From a virus, in the IMG/VR virus record IMGVR_UViG_3300010885_003947, positions 1-24,440 of that record: 24,440 nt of DNA, one strand, 5' to 3'. The notes beneath the pieces are model-generated. The model saw nothing but the letters and a program-made list of their open reading frames with translations. It had not been told where the DNA came from and ran no database searches. Below are positions 2,160 to 13,839 of this stretch, piece after piece (within the stretch, counting starts at the first letter, position 1; every line of letters begins with the position of its first letter). Both the position numbers and the translations under genes were made by a program.

Positions 2160-2818
2160 GCGATATAGCAAAGATGCTATCGGGCGCGTTGGCTGGTCAC
2201 GATAACCAACGAGACAGGTCGCAACAGAAAGATATCGGACCGAGTGCGATAGGTGACTGTCGTCGTCGAGTGTTCATGCAGATTACTAACGCACCAAAGG
2301 TCAACGAAACCGACTCACTCGCCGCGATATTGGGGACATTCATACACTCAGGGGTTGCGGAAGCGATCAAGCGCGAAGACCCGTTTAACGATAACTTTCT
2401 CATCGAGCAAGAGTTTGCGATCGAGGGGTTAAGAGGTCACGTCGATCTCTACATTAAAGACAGAAAGCAAGTCGTGGACTGGAAAACGACAAAGGTAAAG
2501 AGCCTGCGTTACTTTCCGAGCGATCAACAGAAAATGCAGGTGCAGGTGTACGGGTATCTGTTGGAGCAGAACGGGTATTCGGTAGAGAAGGTCACGCTGG
2601 TCGCCATAGCCCGTGACGGGACTTCTGAGGACATTAGAGAACACACCGAGCCCTATGACGAGCAAACTGCGTTAGAGGGGCTCAGATGGCTCGCAGAGGT
2701 TCAAGATGCCGCACTAAATAACCAACCGCCAGAGCCAGAGAAGCACGCGAGTTTCTGCCGTTCATGGTGCGACTACTACGATGAAAAAGGGGTAACTGGG
2801 TGTCCCTCAAAATCCTAG
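2156..2818 (+). CDS. PD-(D/E)XK exonuclease with Fe-S cysteines (Cas4/RecB-like)
   Basis: A 220-residue nuclease of the Cas4/AddB-type branch of the PD-(D/E)XK superfamily. Seen: H64 in GTFIHSG, the metal-binding D97 in GHVDLYI, D108-x-K110 in VVDWKTT, and the Q-x3-Y motif (Q128-Y132 in QVQVYGYLL) of RecB-like enzymes. Four cysteines, C35 near the start and C201, C205 and C216 at the end, fit the one-plus-three arrangement that binds a 4Fe-4S cluster in Cas4 and AddB. Family knowledge gives DNA end resection as the role. Here it would make single strands for the Rad52-like annealing protein upstream. It starts in an ATGA overlap and its end overlaps the next gene by 19 bases. No cas genes or CRISPR repeats are present, so an adaptation role is not suggested. 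Confidence 0.85.
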   Translation: MSDIAKMLSGALAGHDNQRDRSQQKDIGPSAIGDCRRRVFMQITNAPKVNETDSLAAILGTFIHSGVAEAIKREDPFNDNFLIEQEFAIEGLRGHVDLYIKDRKQVVDWKTTKVKSLRYFPSDQQKMQVQVYGYLLEQNGYSVEKVTLVAIARDGTSEDIREHTEPYDEQTALEGLRWLAEVQDAALNNQPPEPEKHASFCRSWCDYYDEKGVTGCPSKS

Positions 2819-3282
2819 CGAGTGAAGCAGGCAAAAGGTACGGAGTGACTGAACGAACTATTTACCGTTACGTCAAAAAGTACGAAATCCATAGGTTCGA
2901 CGATGGGACTTATGACCAAGACCAGTTAGACGCGCTATTCGATAATTACGCAAAACCGGGCTACAAAGACATCGACTGGGATAGGGCAGACTGCAAAGAC
3001 TTGCCTACTGACTTCTTCTATAAGATCGAGGAAAGAGGGGTCGCAAAGGTTCTCGATGTTCAGGTCTTTCGCTCAATCTGTACGCCGTGCCCTATCTGGA
3101 AGAACTGCCTCGGGTATGCAACTCGCAACGAGGATTACGGGGTTTGGGGCGGGATGACTACTGACGAGAGAGTAGCAATATCGGCTAGAGCAAACTCCCC
3201 ACTTAGGGATAAGGTTCTCGAAGATTTTGCAGAGGTGGGTATCAGCAAAACTAAAATCTACGAAGCGATCGGCAAACTGTAA
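2800..3282 (+). CDS. HTH-WhiB fusion regulator
   Basis: A 160-residue protein. Residues 57-128 are a WhiB-like domain: W60, then C65, C94, C97 and C103 (C-x28-C-x2-C-x5-C) for a 4Fe-4S cluster, followed by the G-[VI]-W-G-G turn (114-118). WhiB proteins are confined to Actinobacteria and their phages and bind sigma factor region 4 or DNA in response to redox or nitric oxide. Residues 1-50 are unusual: ILASEAGKRYGVTERTIYRY plus a basic wing reads as a MerR/AlpA-type helix-turn-helix, so DNA contact may be supplied by this domain. Residues 140-160 add another helical segment. The GTG start has AAAGGGG upstream and overlaps the exonuclease end. A role as early/late switch or host transcription modulator is inference. 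Confidence 0.87.
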   Translation: MSLKILASEAGKRYGVTERTIYRYVKKYEIHRFDDGTYDQDQLDALFDNYAKPGYKDIDWDRADCKDLPTDFFYKIEERGVAKVLDVQVFRSICTPCPIWKNCLGYATRNEDYGVWGGMTTDERVAISARANSPLRDKVLEDFAEVGISKTKIYEAIGKL

Positions 3283-4259: not shown

Positions 4260-4442
4260 ATGACTACCAAGCAAGTTAGCCCTAGTTTCGTTCAGGTTGG
4301 CGACCAAGTTAAATTCGGCAACTCAGTTTTCACCGTTAAAGGTTTAGAGCCTGATTACTCCGGTGCGTATGATTTTTACCTAGAGAACTCGAACGGACAA
4401 GCGCACAAAGTAGTAACGGAACCCGTTACTATCGTACGATGA
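4260..4442 (+). CDS. small SH3-like hypothetical protein
   Basis: A 60-residue, beta-rich protein (VQVGDQVKFGNSVFTVKGLE ... YDFYLENSNGQAHKVV). It resembles a KOW/SH3-like barrel such as those of small phage proteins, but no specific family is recognised. ATG 4260 is chosen over GTG 4254 because AGGGGG ends 6 bases before it. Its stop overlaps the RusA gene by an ATGA, so the two are probably translated together. Confidence 0.62.
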   Translation: MTTKQVSPSFVQVGDQVKFGNSVFTVKGLEPDYSGAYDFYLENSNGQAHKVVTEPVTIVR

Positions 4443-4816
4443 TTGAGTTTAGCGTCGATGGCGCACCAGTCCCACAGGGTTCAATGAAAGTGATTAACGG
4501 GCACGTCTTACACTCTCAGGGTTCAGCATTAGCCGTCTGGCGTTCAAGTATTGGACTAGCGGCAAGAATGGCAGGGGCAAAGCCTGTCGAGGGTGCAGTC
4601 GCTATCGAGGTTACTTTCAGGGTACGCAGACCAAAGACAGTAAAGAGAGATTTCCCCACCGTTGCGCCTGACCTGGATAAATACGTGCGCGGGTTGCTGG
4701 ATGCGCTTACCGGAATCTGCTACCTAGACGACTCTCAGGTTATAGACATTATCGCTAAAAAAGTCTATTCAGATCAAGCCGGGGCAGATATAAAATGTTA
4801 TCAAATTGTTACCTAA
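4439..4816 (+). CDS. rusA: RusA-family Holliday junction resolvase
   Basis: A 125-residue protein of usual RusA length. Seen: the N-terminal strand with GAPVPQGSMK (8-17), the acidic core PDLDKYVRGLLDALTG (77-92) with D78 and D80, and YLDDSQVIDIIAKKVY (95-110) with D97/D98. These match the catalytic aspartates and the DDSQV turn of the family. RusA dimers cut four-way junctions symmetrically. In phages this resolves branched DNA left by recombination and replication before packaging. It fits the upstream annealing protein and exonuclease. It starts in an ATGA overlap with the preceding small gene and is followed by a promoter. Confidence 0.9.
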   Translation: MIEFSVDGAPVPQGSMKVINGHVLHSQGSALAVWRSSIGLAARMAGAKPVEGAVAIEVTFRVRRPKTVKRDFPTVAPDLDKYVRGLLDALTGICYLDDSQVIDIIAKKVYSDQAGADIKCYQIVT

Positions 4817-7058: not shown

Positions 7059-7375
7059 AAAAAGAAATCGTAGAACTGGTACAGACTAGGGCGGGGAACT
7101 ACTGCGAAACTTGCGGCAGACCCGCCCTTGAATCTATGGCGTTGCACCATCGAAAATTGAAATCTAGGGGCGGCAAAGACTCAGCATCGAACCTAATCCA
7201 AGTGCATCACGAATGTCATAACTTAGGCACTCAGTCAATCCACGCGAACCCGTCAATGGCAACGGACAAGGGCTGGATGGTTAGTAGTTGGGCAGACCCG
7301 GAAACCGAACCCATGCTAACCCCTGACGGGTCGTGGGTATTGCTGAAAGATGACGGAAGCACCGAAGTCGTGTAA
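7055..7375 (+). CDS. HNH endonuclease
   Basis: A 106-residue protein with a compact HNH fold. C17-x2-C20 (CETCGR) opens a zinc site. MALHHRKLKSRGGKDSASNL holds the first His pair (H31/H32) and the Asn (N46). QVHHECHN holds the last His (H55) and C54. HNH enzymes nick or cut DNA, and in phages they act in packaging, as homing nucleases or in repair. This one lies 2.7 kb before the terminase, next to SSB, so a replication or recombination role is as likely as packaging. It starts at TTG in a TTGA overlap. The C-terminal 40 residues are acidic and unrecognised. Confidence 0.82.
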   Translation: MKKEIVELVQTRAGNYCETCGRPALESMALHHRKLKSRGGKDSASNLIQVHHECHNLGTQSIHANPSMATDKGWMVSSWADPETEPMLTPDGSWVLLKDDGSTEVV

Positions 7376-7403
7376 TGTAACTAATACAACCGAAAGGCAC
7401 ACA

Positions 7404-7781
7404 ATGAACCAAATTATTATCGAAGGTCACTTAGGCGCAGACCCCGAACTAAAAGTATTTAAGGAAGAAACGTTAGCGTCGTTCTCACTAGCACACACTC
7501 CTAGAAGTAAAGTAAATGGGCAGTATGAGGACGGCGAGACAATATGGTTTCGAGTCACGTTCTGGAACTCTAAATCTGATGCAGTATTAGACAACCTACG
7601 CAAAGGCGATAAAGTCCTAGTCGCTGGCAAGTTGTCGCAATCGACCTACACCAACAAAGCAGGGGAAGTGAAGTCGTCGCTAGAAATCTCTGGGACTCAT
7701 TTCTACCTAGCCACTAAATCAACTAAAGCACCGCGAGTCGATCAATTCTCGAATGAGAAGCAGGATGCGCCGGAATGGTAA
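7404..7781 (+). CDS. ssb: single-stranded DNA-binding protein
   Basis: A 125-residue SSB with an OB fold: NQIIIEGHLGADPELKVF, then ASFSLAH, ETIWFRVTFWN, DNLRKGDKVLVAGKLSQSTY and KSSLEISGTHFYLA match the strands of bacterial SSB in order. It binds single strands during replication and recombination, and would partner the annealing protein and the initiator. The usual acidic DDxPF tip is replaced by a short QDAPEW end, so contacts with host proteins may be weaker or different. ATG 7404 has CGAAAGG upstream. A longer in-frame start at 7350 lies inside the HNH gene. Confidence 0.9.
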   Translation: MNQIIIEGHLGADPELKVFKEETLASFSLAHTPRSKVNGQYEDGETIWFRVTFWNSKSDAVLDNLRKGDKVLVAGKLSQSTYTNKAGEVKSSLEISGTHFYLATKSTKAPRVDQFSNEKQDAPEW

Positions 7782-7967: not shown

Positions 7968-8183
7968 ATGATAATCGACAAGGATGAAATAACGCTCGCA
8001 GATATTGACGAGTGCATTTCTCATCTGTCGCTAATGTTAAAAGATCAGTACGGGAATAGGCTAACCCATCAGCGTAGGGCGTATCTGTTGGGCGAACTGG
8101 ACGCACTACTCGACGCAAGATTAGAGGCAAGTAATGAAACTGGAAACAGTAACGATCGAGAGTCTGAAACTCGACCCGAATAA
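7968..8183 (+). CDS. small hypothetical acidic protein
   Basis: A 71-residue, mostly helical and acidic protein (TLADIDECISHLSLMLKDQY ... AYLLGELDALLDARLEA). The last 16 residues, rich in Asn, Asp, Glu and Ser, are read from the overlap with the next gene (50 bases). An ATG at 7964 in another frame is rejected as too short. No family is recognised. The long overlap suggests close coupling to the ParB-like gene, so it could be a partner of the modification cassette, but this is inference. Confidence 0.6.
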   Translation: MIIDKDEITLADIDECISHLSLMLKDQYGNRLTHQRRAYLLGELDALLDARLEASNETGNSNDRESETRPE

Positions 8184-8661
8184 TGCAAGAAAACACTCTG
8201 CACGCAATTTAGAGGCGATCGCAAAAAGTCTTAATAGATTCGGGCAACGCAAGCCGATAGTCGTTCATAATGGCATAGTGATCGCTGGAAACGGCACAGT
8301 AGAAGCCGCTAAAAGTTTAGGCTGGAAAGAGATCGGGATAACTCGATGCCCTGATGACTGGGATGATGAGACCGCTAAGGCGTTCGCGCTCGCTGACAAT
8401 AGATCGGCTGAACTGGCTGAGTGGGACGAGATAACGCTATCGGCTCAACTGATCGACCTTGATGGGATGGGTTGGGACTTGGAAGAGTTAGGGTTCGAGT
8501 CTATCCCGTTGCGCGATCTTGATGAAAGCGAAGACGTTGAGATGAAAGATTTAGGCGAAAAGTATGAGGTAGTTATTTCTTGCGATGGCGAAAGTGAGCA
8601 GTCGGATTTACTGTTACGTTTATCGAGCGAAGGTCTTAAAGTGAGAGCAATCGTTATATGA
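8134..8661 (+). CDS. ParB/sulfiredoxin-like protein of modification cassette
   Basis: A 175-residue protein. Residues 5-90 are a ParB N-terminal (Srx-like) domain: KLDPNNARKHSARNLEAIAK, FGQRKPIVVHNGIVIAGNGTVEAAKSLGW, then AKAFALADNRSAELAEWDE. In this copy the usual GHGR/GNGR turn is GNGT, so the catalytic Arg is absent. The rest (100-175) contains WDLEELGF and a C-terminal alpha/beta unit (KYEVVISCDGESEQSDLLLR). In phages such proteins sit beside DNA methylases or base-modifying enzymes and may supply sequence recognition or CTP/ATP-dependent DNA contact. Here it overlaps the ABC-GNAT gene by ATGA, strong evidence for a functional pair. Confidence 0.83.
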   Translation: MKLETVTIESLKLDPNNARKHSARNLEAIAKSLNRFGQRKPIVVHNGIVIAGNGTVEAAKSLGWKEIGITRCPDDWDDETAKAFALADNRSAELAEWDEITLSAQLIDLDGMGWDLEELGFESIPLRDLDESEDVEMKDLGEKYEVVISCDGESEQSDLLLRLSSEGLKVRAIVI

Positions 8662-9788
8662 TAAAAATAATTACGTTAAAATCAAACATCGTTCGTACTC
8701 CGCGAGTTATGCAACTAGAGGGAATGTTCGATCTTGAAACTGTAAGCAATTCCATTACAGAAATTCCAATAAACGTGCCTAATCTTGATACGCAAAAATG
8801 GAACATTGGTTTAATTGTTGGTCCTTCAGGAGCAGGGAAAAGCACCGTAGCCAAACATTTATTTGGAGATGTATTACGACAGTCTGAATCGTTAAAATGG
8901 TCTAAAGATAAAGCGTTAATAGACGATTTCCCAAAAACGATGTCGATCAGAGAGATTACGGATTTATTGTCCTCTGTAGGTTTTTCAAGTCCGCCGGCAT
9001 GGTTGCGATCGTATTATGCGTTATCTAATGGTGAGCAGTTTCGAGTTAACATGGCTCGTATTATTTCTGAAAACAACGATTTAACAGTTGTCGATGAGTT
9101 TACTTCTGTTATTGATAGAACAACGGCGCAGATCGGTTCACACGCCATAGCAAAAACCATACGAAGACGAGATCAAAAGTTCGTCGCCGTCGCGTGTCAT
9201 TATGACATTGAAGAATGGTTACAACCTGACTGGATTTATCAACCCAGCACAGGCGAATTCACTTGGGGGTCGGTTCAACCCCGACCACAAGTCAGTCTTA
9301 AAATCTTTCACGCAAAATACTCAGCGTGGCAAACATTTGCTCGACATCATTATTTAGACAAAAATCTAAATCGTTCTGCTCAGTTATACGTAGCGACTGT
9401 TAACGATCAGCCAGCCGCGTTAATTGCCACACTTGCATTCCCTCATCCAAAAATAAAAAACGCAAAAAGAGTGTCGCGTATTGTTGTTATGCCTGATTTT
9501 CAAGGGATTGGGATAGGGATTAAGTTTCTCAGTATGTTATCTGCTGGTTTCAAGGCAAATGGGTTTTCAATATACATTACGACATCACACCCGGGGTTTA
9601 TGAAATCACTTAATAAATCTGATCAATGGAAACTCATTCGCTTACCTTCAAGAGTAAGTCAACAAGGCAAATCGTTACATCAAAACTTGGTCTTATCTAG
9701 AGGACGTTTGACTACTTCGTTTGCTTATGCAGGAGAAATAGATAGTAACATGGCAAGAATGCTTGAACTACCTATAGCGAAATCGTAA
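8658..9788 (+). CDS. ABC ATPase-GNAT fusion, candidate Mom-like DNA modifier
   Basis: A 376-residue two-domain protein. Residues 1-205 are an ABC-type ATPase without membrane domains: Walker A GPSGAGKST (55-63), signature LSNGEQ (122-127), Walker B LTVVDE (142-147) and switch H181. Residues 212-350 are a GNAT-like acyltransferase: HHYLDKNLNRSAQLYVATV, then RIVVMPDFQGIGIG (274-287, the cofactor loop), then TSHPGF (309-314). The same domain fusion is known beside ParB proteins in phages and has been linked to Mu Mom, which converts adenine to N6-carbamoylmethyladenine and blocks restriction. The Mom link is from family knowledge and is not proven here. The gene is visibly richer in A/T and TTA/AAA-type codons than its neighbours, suggesting recent transfer. 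It lies immediately before terminase. Confidence 0.85.
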   Translation: MIKIITLKSNIVRTPRVMQLEGMFDLETVSNSITEIPINVPNLDTQKWNIGLIVGPSGAGKSTVAKHLFGDVLRQSESLKWSKDKALIDDFPKTMSIREITDLLSSVGFSSPPAWLRSYYALSNGEQFRVNMARIISENNDLTVVDEFTSVIDRTTAQIGSHAIAKTIRRRDQKFVAVACHYDIEEWLQPDWIYQPSTGEFTWGSVQPRPQVSLKIFHAKYSAWQTFARHHYLDKNLNRSAQLYVATVNDQPAALIATLAFPHPKIKNAKRVSRIVVMPDFQGIGIGIKFLSMLSAGFKANGFSIYITTSHPGFMKSLNKSDQWKLIRLPSRVSQQGKSLHQNLVLSRGRLTTSFAYAGEIDSNMARMLELPIAKS

Positions 9789-11562: not shown

Positions 11563-13839
11563 ATGGGTCTAATCGACCGTATTGCAAAAGCCGTAGCAGA
11601 TCAGATCGAAAAAGCACCTAGTAACCTTCCGGCTGGTTCTGTTGTCATGTCCGAGCAAGATATGAGAAACGCAAGTCAGCAAAACACCTACGGGCAACAG
11701 ACACCGCTACCGCGCAACCCTCTTATGGCTGGCGTACCGTTCGGTCCGGGTATGCCTATTATGCCGGGCGCGATCAACCCGCTAAGACCTGACGGACGAC
11801 CTGACCCTAGACGTTACGAATACCAAGTAGCGCAGAACCTCAACATCGGCACAGAGCAAAAACTCGTACAATTCAAGACACTTCGGGGAGCCGCAGAACA
11901 GATCGATATCGTGCGTAGATGCGTCGAAGTATTGAAGGCTAAAATCTCTGGGTTGGACTGGGATATCGTAATTGCTGAAGATGCTAGTGAAAAGATTATT
12001 GCCGAGATCGGTGGAGATCACACTCGCGCAATGAGTGAAGCACGTCGCAAGTTTTCGGATGATATTTACAGACTGCGTACATTCTGGGAAAACCCTGACC
12101 GATCTAATGGTTTAACTTTCATCGACTGGATGATGATGAGCCTAGAGGAAATCCTAGTGCTAGATGCGTGGGCTATCTGGCCGCAGAAAACAGTCGGTGG
12201 AGATTTATACGGTTTCCAAATTCTCGACGGTTCAACAATTAAACCAATGCTCGACGATCGCGGAATGCGCCCGATGCCGCCGCAAGCGGCTTACCAGCAA
12301 ATACTCTACGGGTTTCCTCGCACAGAGTTTCAAGCAAACTCAGACGACCCAAATGCAGACGGTGAATTTACCGCAGACGATCTAAGTTATTTCATACGCA
12401 ACCGCAGGGCTAACTCGGTATATGGCTCGTCACCTGTTGAGAGATGCCTACCGTTAGCCGATCTGTATCTACGTCGTCAGCAATGGCTACGCGCTGAATA
12501 CACCGACGGCGTAACCCCTGAGATGATGCTTACCTCAGATGCCGACTTCGGTAATGACCCGTTGGTAATGAAGCAGTACGAAAACATAATCAACGACAAC
12601 CTAGCAGGGCAGACAGAACAGAGAAAGCGCGCACTCATTCTTCCGGCAGGTCTTAAGCCTGAATTTTACGAAGGCTACGGCGAGAAGTTTAAGTCTGCGC
12701 TAGATGAGTACCTCATCACTTCGATAACTGGACACTTCGGCGTACTGCCTACCGAGATCGGGTTTAGTGCAAAGGGTGGACTAGGTGCATCGGGTCACCA
12801 AGCAGGGGAAGCAGAAGCCGCGCAAAATATCGGAGTCGCACCTCTCGCTCAATGGATTTCTAAGATGATTACGAACATCTCTTATACGTATCTCGGAATG
12901 CCACGCGAACTCGAATTTAAGTTTATGACTAGCGAGATTCACGACAACGAAGCCGCCGCAAAGAAATCAGACTTAGAACTACGCGGTGGAACTAAGACAA
13001 TGAACGAGCGCAGATCAGAACTCGGACTGCCACTACTCGAAACACCTGCGGCAGATCAACCTATCCTCGTCGCTGGTAATGGCGTGTATCTGTTCACACC
13101 TGAAGGAATAGTCAACGCGGCAAGTCCGGGCGCAGGTCTATCTTCACAGGATGCAGAGGTCGACCCAATCGCACCGACTGAGCCAGAACAAAAACCGGAA
13201 GCACCTAAAGAAACTGCCGTGCCTGATTTCGAGAAGGCTGGCGTGCCGAGTAAGTCTGAAGTAAAGGATGCGCTATCTCGTTTGGCAGTATTACCTAATG
13301 AAGCGGCAGAACATCCTGCATCAGATGACCCAGACCAGTTAGCAAACTCAGTCGAAAGCCCGTGGCCGATTATTGAAACTGTCGAAGGTAACTACATAGT
13401 CGACCCTGATGTATGGACTAAAGCCCAGTTAACTCTCGTGACAATTAAAGAACTGTACGGCACCAATTACGGCATGAACCGTAAAAATGTAGCGAAACAT
13501 ATCGAGTCAATGGGTCAGGCACTTACTCCGTATCGTGGCTACCCTCTCGTTTACAACGATGGCGAAAGAAACATCATCATCGACGGGCATCACAGACTAT
13601 TCGCAATGTGGCTACTAGGGATGGAGCAAGCCCCTGTCTGGTTGGGAACTCCCGACATGGCAAAGGAAGCCGCCGCAGAGGTTAAAGCATTTCTAAAGTG
13701 GGCTAAAAAAGGTGGAGCCAATCGCAGGGATTTCGACTTTAAGGCACTCGACCCAATCGTTGCAGATGCGCTCAATCGTTGCGCCTTCGATGGGGACATG
13801 GATACCGCCTACTCGCTCGCAAAGGCTTACACTCAATGA
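11563..13839 (+). CDS. portal protein with C-terminal ParB/Srx-like domain
   Basis: A 758-residue protein, longer than usual portals (about 450-550). Residues 85-510 are the portal: RRCVEVLKAKISGLDWDIVI, the clip/stem region with SPVERCLPLADLYLRRQQW, and LITSITGHFGVLPTEIGFS. It forms the dodecameric ring through which DNA enters. Residues 510-600 are a Pro/Glu/Ala linker. Residues 600-700 form a ParB/sulfiredoxin-like domain with IIIDGHHRLFAMW (D674-G-H-H-R678). The final 55 residues (FLKWAKKGGANRRDFDFKAL) match tails seen on portal or capsid proteins. AAGGGG precedes the start. What the ParB-like domain does on a portal is unknown. Confidence 0.88.
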   Translation: MGLIDRIAKAVADQIEKAPSNLPAGSVVMSEQDMRNASQQNTYGQQTPLPRNPLMAGVPFGPGMPIMPGAINPLRPDGRPDPRRYEYQVAQNLNIGTEQKLVQFKTLRGAAEQIDIVRRCVEVLKAKISGLDWDIVIAEDASEKIIAEIGGDHTRAMSEARRKFSDDIYRLRTFWENPDRSNGLTFIDWMMMSLEEILVLDAWAIWPQKTVGGDLYGFQILDGSTIKPMLDDRGMRPMPPQAAYQQILYGFPRTEFQANSDDPNADGEFTADDLSYFIRNRRANSVYGSSPVERCLPLADLYLRRQQWLRAEYTDGVTPEMMLTSDADFGNDPLVMKQYENIINDNLAGQTEQRKRALILPAGLKPEFYEGYGEKFKSALDEYLITSITGHFGVLPTEIGFSAKGGLGASGHQAGEAEAAQNIGVAPLAQWISKMITNISYTYLGMPRELEFKFMTSEIHDNEAAAKKSDLELRGGTKTMNERRSELGLPLLETPAADQPILVAGNGVYLFTPEGIVNAASPGAGLSSQDAEVDPIAPTEPEQKPEAPKETAVPDFEKAGVPSKSEVKDALSRLAVLPNEAAEHPASDDPDQLANSVESPWPIIETVEGNYIVDPDVWTKAQLTLVTIKELYGTNYGMNRKNVAKHIESMGQALTPYRGYPLVYNDGERNIIIDGHHRLFAMWLLGMEQAPVWLGTPDMAKEAAAEVKAFLKWAKKGGANRRDFDFKALDPIVADALNRCAFDGDMDTAYSLAKAYTQ

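Follow-up and report, generated by a model that had tools for sequence, protein, structure and literature searches.

The window, by which we mean the whole 24,440-nucleotide stretch of viral DNA analysed here, carries a pair of overlapping genes. The first (8134-8661) encodes a ParB/Srx-like protein of 175 amino acids, and the second (8658-9788) is an intact open reading frame for a 376-residue protein, ABC-GNAT, in which an ABC-type ATPase is joined to a GNAT-fold acyltransferase (Table 1). The ATGA overlap probably couples translation of the two genes, and 4-bp overlaps of this kind occur at 73 loci, more than any other arrangement before ABC-GNAT. The ParB-like protein contains the ParB_N domain of the ParB/Srx superfamily and matched phrog_620 (E=4e-36), while its score against PF02195 (E=1.6e-4, 22.1 bits) was slightly under the curated cut-off of 26.3. 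ABC-GNAT matched PF00005 ABC_tran (E=9e-11), several GNAT Pfam models weakly (E about 1e-3) and, over its full length, phrog_11143 (E=4e-107), a family without assigned function. Directly 3' of the cassette lie TerS and TerL. An earlier note on this DNA had described the overlapping pair with its domains and motifs, the adjoining terminase and a lack of transporter membrane genes nearby, and all of this was borne out; the membrane subunit expected as partner of an ABC transporter was absent from the window ORFs scanned. The window showed neither a cognate restriction gene nor a gene for acyl supply, and no gene for the zinc-ribbon protein Com was seen beside the cassette of this phage, which is not Mu-like. 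Close DNA relatives of the window were not found among deposited phages, and NCBIfam and PADLOC, which have no model for ABC-GNAT, returned generic ABC matches only.

Other genes in the window were also identified. A WhiB-family transcription factor (2800-3282; PF02467, E=4e-12) points to an actinobacterial host. Recombination genes are located at 639-2818, 4439-4816 and 7350-7781 (single-strand annealing protein, PD-(D/E)XK exonuclease, RusA resolvase and SSB). In the 758-residue portal protein (11563-13839), residues about 640-700 weakly matched phrog_620 (E=0.0095) and ParBc_2 (E=0.2), and this C-terminal stretch may form a second ParB-like domain; no Pfam match was obtained with the last 198 residues alone.

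Table 1. Features of the ParB-like/ABC-GNAT gene pair, in window coordinates
Feature	Position	Strand	Residues	Basis or conservation (57 relatives)
ParB/Srx-like N-terminal domain, the exchangeable module	8134..8487	+	1-118	PF02195, phrog_620, phrog_498
Conserved C-terminal tail of ParB-like protein, EKYEVVISCDGESEQSDLLLRLSSEGLKVRAIVI region, then stop	8554..8658	+	141-175	alignment
ATGA overlap, ParB stop/ABC-GNAT start	8658..8661	+		from sequence
ABC-type ATPase domain	8658..9293	+	1-212	PF00005, Foldseek to ABC NBDs, invariant catalytic residues
Walker A GPSGAGKST	8820..8846	+	55-63	G55, S57, G58, G60, K61 invariant
ABC signature LSNGE	9021..9035	+	122-126	L122, S123, G125 invariant
Walker B and D-loop LTVVDEFTSVIDR	9081..9119	+	142-154	D146, E147, S150, R154 invariant, D153 nearly
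H-loop histidine	9198..9200	+	H181	invariant
GNAT-fold acyltransferase domain	9294..9728	+	213-357	weak Pfam GNAT, AF2 and Foldseek of domain
HHYL box, candidate acceptor-side residues (putative role)	9345..9356	+	230-233	Y232 invariant
Acyl-CoA pyrophosphate loop RIVVMPDFQGIG	9477..9512	+	274-285	R274, V276, P279, Q282, G283, G285 invariant
TSHPGF motif	9582..9599	+	309-314	H311, P312 nearly invariant

Residue conservation was scored across 57 ABC-GNAT relatives. Because the catalytic-motif residues are invariant in this set, both active sites of the protein are maintained, and in the HHYL box the other three residues, H230, H231 and L233, are nearly invariant. AF2 modelling on the 57-sequence alignment gave a pLDDT of 92.1 and a pTM of 0.86 for the full chain, and the isolated GNAT domain was likewise predicted as a confident fold (pLDDT 88.9).

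The system is widespread. A tblastn search identified 81 phage records with ABC-GNAT, 43 of which cover at least 80% of the query, and the hosts of these phages include Gordonia, Lactococcus, Streptococcus, Porphyromonas, Leptospira, Aeromonas and Pseudomonas. IMG/VR holds at least 225 confirmed loci, 80 of which were kept, and further scans using the Jace, Komp and AnClar proteins as queries added other clades. Among GTDB genomes we found 475 loci, the best 80 of which are mostly from Planctomycetota and Actinomycetota, with some from Pseudomonadota and others. The ABC_tran match, together with public annotations as siderophore or hemin transporter, would fit an ordinary ABC transporter ATPase to which an unrelated acetyltransferase became fused by chance. 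This explanation is practically excluded, since the fusion is kept across hundreds of loci in several bacterial phyla, no permease was found nearby, and in Lactococcus and Streptococcus phages, where ABC and GNAT are encoded by separate genes, the two stay adjacent. The fusion is not due to chance. The annotations in three of the phage records (H7, H10 and H14), which read ABC siderophore transporter, ABC-transporter and hemin importer, look wrong.

A protein of this architecture has been the subject of an earlier prediction. According to the account in PMC7824862, Iyer, Zhang, Burroughs and Aravind predicted in 2013 that an ABC ATPase-coupled GNAT would place an uncharacterised acyl group on a DNA base, and phage pT24 is named there. 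The window protein likewise joins an ABC core with intact catalytic motifs to a GNAT domain, and by sequence we assign the window pair to this already published predicted class of ABC-ATPase/GNAT base acylation systems (phrog_11143). The pT24 protein is the same fusion and is 38% identical to the window protein over 321 residues (tblastn), but the window has a ParB-plus-tail partner, whereas pT24 and its clade have neither part.

To describe this partner, we aligned the proteins encoded upstream of ABC-GNAT and found that they have a C-terminal stretch of about 40 residues in common. This tail, which is short and whose profile was derived from the very loci counted, is present upstream in 73 of 75 window-like loci and 65 of 77 bacterial loci with enough upstream sequence. 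In Mu-like loci it forms a standalone ORF of 42-75 amino acids in 73 of 80 cases, which overlaps the ABC-GNAT start and has no ParB domain. We also searched for the tail in other settings, and every phage matched by two tail queries in tblastn was one in which ABC-GNAT had already been found. The constant partner of ABC-GNAT is the tail and not ParB. A standalone tail ORF in Porphyromonas phage007a (L096, 3831-3959) and its relatives is annotated as 'acr candidate' in deposited Porphyromonas phages; this anti-CRISPR label is doubtful because both its place and its sequence show a partner of ABC-GNAT.

The ParB domain, by comparison, varies between close relatives. Loci L225 and L234 have ABC-GNAT proteins that are 83% identical and tails that are 64% identical, but their ParB domains have no BLAST match to each other; the same holds for L037 and L051 (ABC-GNAT 74%, tail 81%). 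Between L051 and the window, identity is 66% in the ABC domain, 49% in the GNAT domain and 77% in the tail, versus 23% in ParB. Exchange pairs of this kind account for 339 of 3284 pairs with ABC-GNAT at least 50% identical, a total to which relatively few loci contribute most. Thus, the ParB domain is swapped between close relatives while tail and ABC-GNAT stay. The pattern resembles an exchange of recognition modules on a fixed writer and may be compared to the specificity subunits of restriction systems. In our tree the tail-only Mu-like group is nested within ParB-plus-tail lineages, indicating that this group lost ParB and kept the tail, and the clade of T4-like phages, pT24 and P12024S has neither. 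The earlier note had cast the ATPase and ParB parts as those that target the system to DNA and had tied their action to packaging by the adjacent terminase. An essential targeting role of ParB does not agree with these losses and absences. The packaging link is not supported either, as the terminase adjoins the cassette in some lineages only, with different contexts in Mu-like phages, Jace and pT24. In Rhizobium phage RHEph10 (L095, 3968-4612 and 5205-6089), a related ABC-only gene lies between ParB genes, and a separate GNAT-like protein, annotated as an ABC transporter subunit, is encoded nearby; these genes are possibly a distant relative of the ABC-GNAT system.

The ParB domain of the window is closest to phage ParB proteins and to the ParB portion of fusions with DNA methyltransferases, with matches to the phrog_498 DNA methyltransferases (E=4e-34) and to PADLOC MTase_II (E=4.5e-18). 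In a 2025 survey, fusion to DNA methyltransferases was reported as frequent among phage ParB folds, and GTP binding was reported for a ParB-acetyltransferase fusion (PMC12704722). These ParB-DNA methyltransferase fusions (phrog_498; PMC12704722) carry the same ParB-type N-terminal domain on a DNA-modifying activity. However, they transfer methyl groups from SAM and have no ABC ATPase, and the ParB-like protein of the window is encoded by a separate, overlapping gene.

The Mu-like relatives supply a further link to DNA modification. The DNA-modification gene of phage Mu is mom, whose translation com activates (PMC6483171). By clustering, a Com zinc ribbon (PF10122) is located 22-239 bp, and mostly 100-155 bp, before the ABC-GNAT ORF at 63 loci, and HMM searches placed Com upstream of ABC-GNAT in 68 of 80 Mu-like loci. 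All five Coms that we tested, four of them from Mu-like ABC-GNAT loci, scored above the PF10122 cut-off. ABC-GNAT lies behind the phage tail genes at the right genome end in these phages and holds a Mom-type position relative to com. We then performed the reverse scan with a com profile and took the 80 com loci with the highest scores among at least 521; many of the 80 are closely related, and the query came largely from ABC-GNAT-associated Coms, a bias that would favour ABC-GNAT and not methyltransferases. The gene downstream of com was readable at 78 loci and encodes a DNA methyltransferase in 74 (58 D12 adenine, 14 N6/N4 and 2 C5) and an ABC-GNAT cassette in 4, the remaining two loci ending at the contig end before the downstream gene. 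Two of the 58 D12 cases are single fusion proteins (L271, 3474-4421, and L278, 3474-4427) in which the Com zinc ribbon is joined to the D12 adenine methyltransferase; the L271 protein matched both PF10122 (E=3e-13) and PF02086 (E=1e-26).

Because every readable case is a DNA methyltransferase or ABC-GNAT, the com slot is a DNA-modification slot. No Mom was detected in 30 Mu-like ABC-GNAT records with the PF25680 profile, which was positive for the Mu control (2.8e-77). The com-linked clade is divergent from the window protein (about 35% identical, tree branch 0.94), and its evidence therefore reaches the window by homology. Since relatives occupy a regulated slot reserved in other phages for enzymes that modify DNA, we consider it probable that the family modifies DNA, and ATP-driven acylation of DNA bases is the reading that best accommodates the sequence evidence. 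The proposal of a DNA-modification cassette thus gains support from the com slot, from the methyltransferase-type ParB module and from the published class prediction.

The Mom-like position raises the question of a true Mom-family member making N6-carbamoylmethyl-adenine. Such an enzyme would explain why the Mu-like relatives hold the mom position behind com, but it is contradicted on sequence and very improbable. In the Pfam scan of the window, PF25680 had no match with E≤1, and hhalign against the Mom profile, which is shallow (Neff 1.2), gave a probability of 0.1. Additionally, the Mom structure 8bv8, although in the PDB, is absent from the 50 best fold matches of the isolated domain, and ABC-GNAT retains the canonical acyl-CoA loop. 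We therefore rejected 'Mom-like' as a family label. The earlier note had proposed comparing the structure of the domain with Mom and had named a match to ordinary acetyltransferases as evidence against its claim; an ordinary acetyl-CoA GNAT fold is what we found, and as regards the fold that claim falls. Mom and ABC-GNAT are both GNAT superfamily enzymes, and the cassette of the Mu-like relatives is found at the right end of the genome, behind a Com zinc ribbon. Beyond the superfamily there is no homology, and the window system adds an ABC ATPase and a tail/ParB partner and is without com. ABC-GNAT is thus no Mom enzyme and could at most resemble Mom in function, which is possible without homology.

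Foldseek of the isolated GNAT domain was led by RimI and other acetyl-CoA GNATs that act on proteins or small molecules. Acetylation of RNA polymerase by phage GNATs has precedent (PMC7824862), and during takeover ABC-GNAT could in the same way acetylate a host protein, RNA polymerase or a defence factor, under the regulation of ParB and the ATPase. We regard this as unlikely because it leaves unexplained both the com slot, which is otherwise used only for DNA methyltransferases or Mom, and the ParB module common to DNA methyltransferases.

With the whole chain as query, the best PDB match was TmcA, which spans both halves of the protein at a TM of 0.28 and ranked 12th for the GNAT domain alone. 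TmcA and NAT10, the tRNA-rRNA cytidine acetyltransferases, also combine ATPase and GNAT in one chain and use ATP for N-acetylation of a nucleobase. This likeness could indicate an RNA or tRNA base acetyltransferase of that kind, or a GNAT acting on aminoacyl-tRNA. However, TmcA-type enzymes act on RNA and combine a RecD-like helicase with a GNAT bearing a tRNA-binding tail, an architecture that ABC-GNAT does not have; its ATPase is of the ABC type with LSNGE, the com-slot partners are DNA enzymes, and ParB modules are known as DNA-associated. An RNA substrate is thus distinctly improbable, the likeness is at the level of fold only, and given the TM value we use the TmcA match as a mechanistic analogy only.

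If ABC-GNAT acylates DNA, the acyl donor may differ between subclades. In the Jace clade, PanD is encoded 3' of ABC-GNAT in 6 of 19 loci and a CoA-transferase III in 10 of 19. The PanD proteins (PF02261, E=2e-33) keep the autocleavage Y-x-G-S motif in 7 of 7 sequences, and the CoA-transferase, although shortened, matches PF02515 (E=2e-8) with a conserved GD-TaaGL segment. The two genes are found together again in a lineage of planctomycetes (L441). Their presence suggests a beta-alanyl-CoA donor. In loci L099-L104, PanD and CoA-transferase III are flanked by two ABC-GNAT genes in one cluster. A formyltransferase-fold protein (PF00551; E=2e-18 in L160, 3e-17 in L090) is encoded 3' of ABC-GNAT in 28 of 36 AnClar-clade and 25 of 47 Mu-like-clade loci. 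The canonical formyltransferase triad consists of N-x-H and an Asp. Across 52 sequences compared, the His and Asp are kept but Gly replaces the Asn, and formylation by these proteins is consequently unproven. The added genes hint at acyl groups that are specific to each clade. Neither a formyltransferase nor PanD was present in the records of 20 window-like relatives, some of them incomplete, and acetyl-CoA is thus our default guess for the donor in the window phage.

For the preferred reading of ATP-driven DNA base acylation, we propose the following mechanism. The ABC ATPase domain would dimerise and, at the expense of ATP, load onto DNA, scan it or open it for the GNAT domain, a role modelled on TmcA, in which the helicase half serves the GNAT in tRNA ac4C synthesis. 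The GNAT domain would then move an acyl group from acyl-CoA, most simply host acetyl-CoA in the window phage, to an exocyclic amine of a DNA base. The tail of the ParB-like protein would dock on ABC-GNAT, with the ParB domain as an exchangeable, NTP-binding recognition or loading module, and phage DNA modified in this way would be shielded from host restriction. A fuller version, which is plausible but which we hold only tentatively, envisages a modular machine for DNA N-acylation, with the tail docking swappable ParB modules on an ATP-driven GNAT writer. Its subclades would write different groups, acetyl by default, beta-alanyl with PanD and CoA-transferase, and a third with the formyltransferase-fold protein, and in Mu-like phages it would have taken over the com-controlled slot of DNA methyltransferases and Mom.

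We found no report of the com slot, of the conserved tail, of ParB being exchanged or of the acyl-supply genes in the literature compared, the 2013 text of Iyer and colleagues lying outside that comparison. The tail as constant partner, the exchange and loss of ParB and the genes added in subclades are apparently new here. A paper on Leptospira phages LE3 and LE4, both of which carry ABC-GNAT, does not mention restriction or methylation. A study of 'unknown DNA modification' in Klebsiella phages KP15 and KP27 does not mention ABC, acetyltransferase or ParB, and none of the terms GNAT, acetyltransferase, ABC transporter and ParB occurs in MetaGPA.

The family is common, occurring in hundreds of phages and prophages across several bacterial phyla, and most members are annotated as transporter or hypothetical. 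With the com-slot result, what had been a general prediction becomes specific, and it can be put to the test in the cultured Pseudomonas phage Komp_PAO1_1, which grows on a standard strain; Rhodococcus phage Jace and Lactococcus phage P335 are further phages suited to such a test. If the prediction is true, acyl groups would be an added class of phage DNA mark, set by an ATP-driven writer, and would offer phages a new route past restriction.
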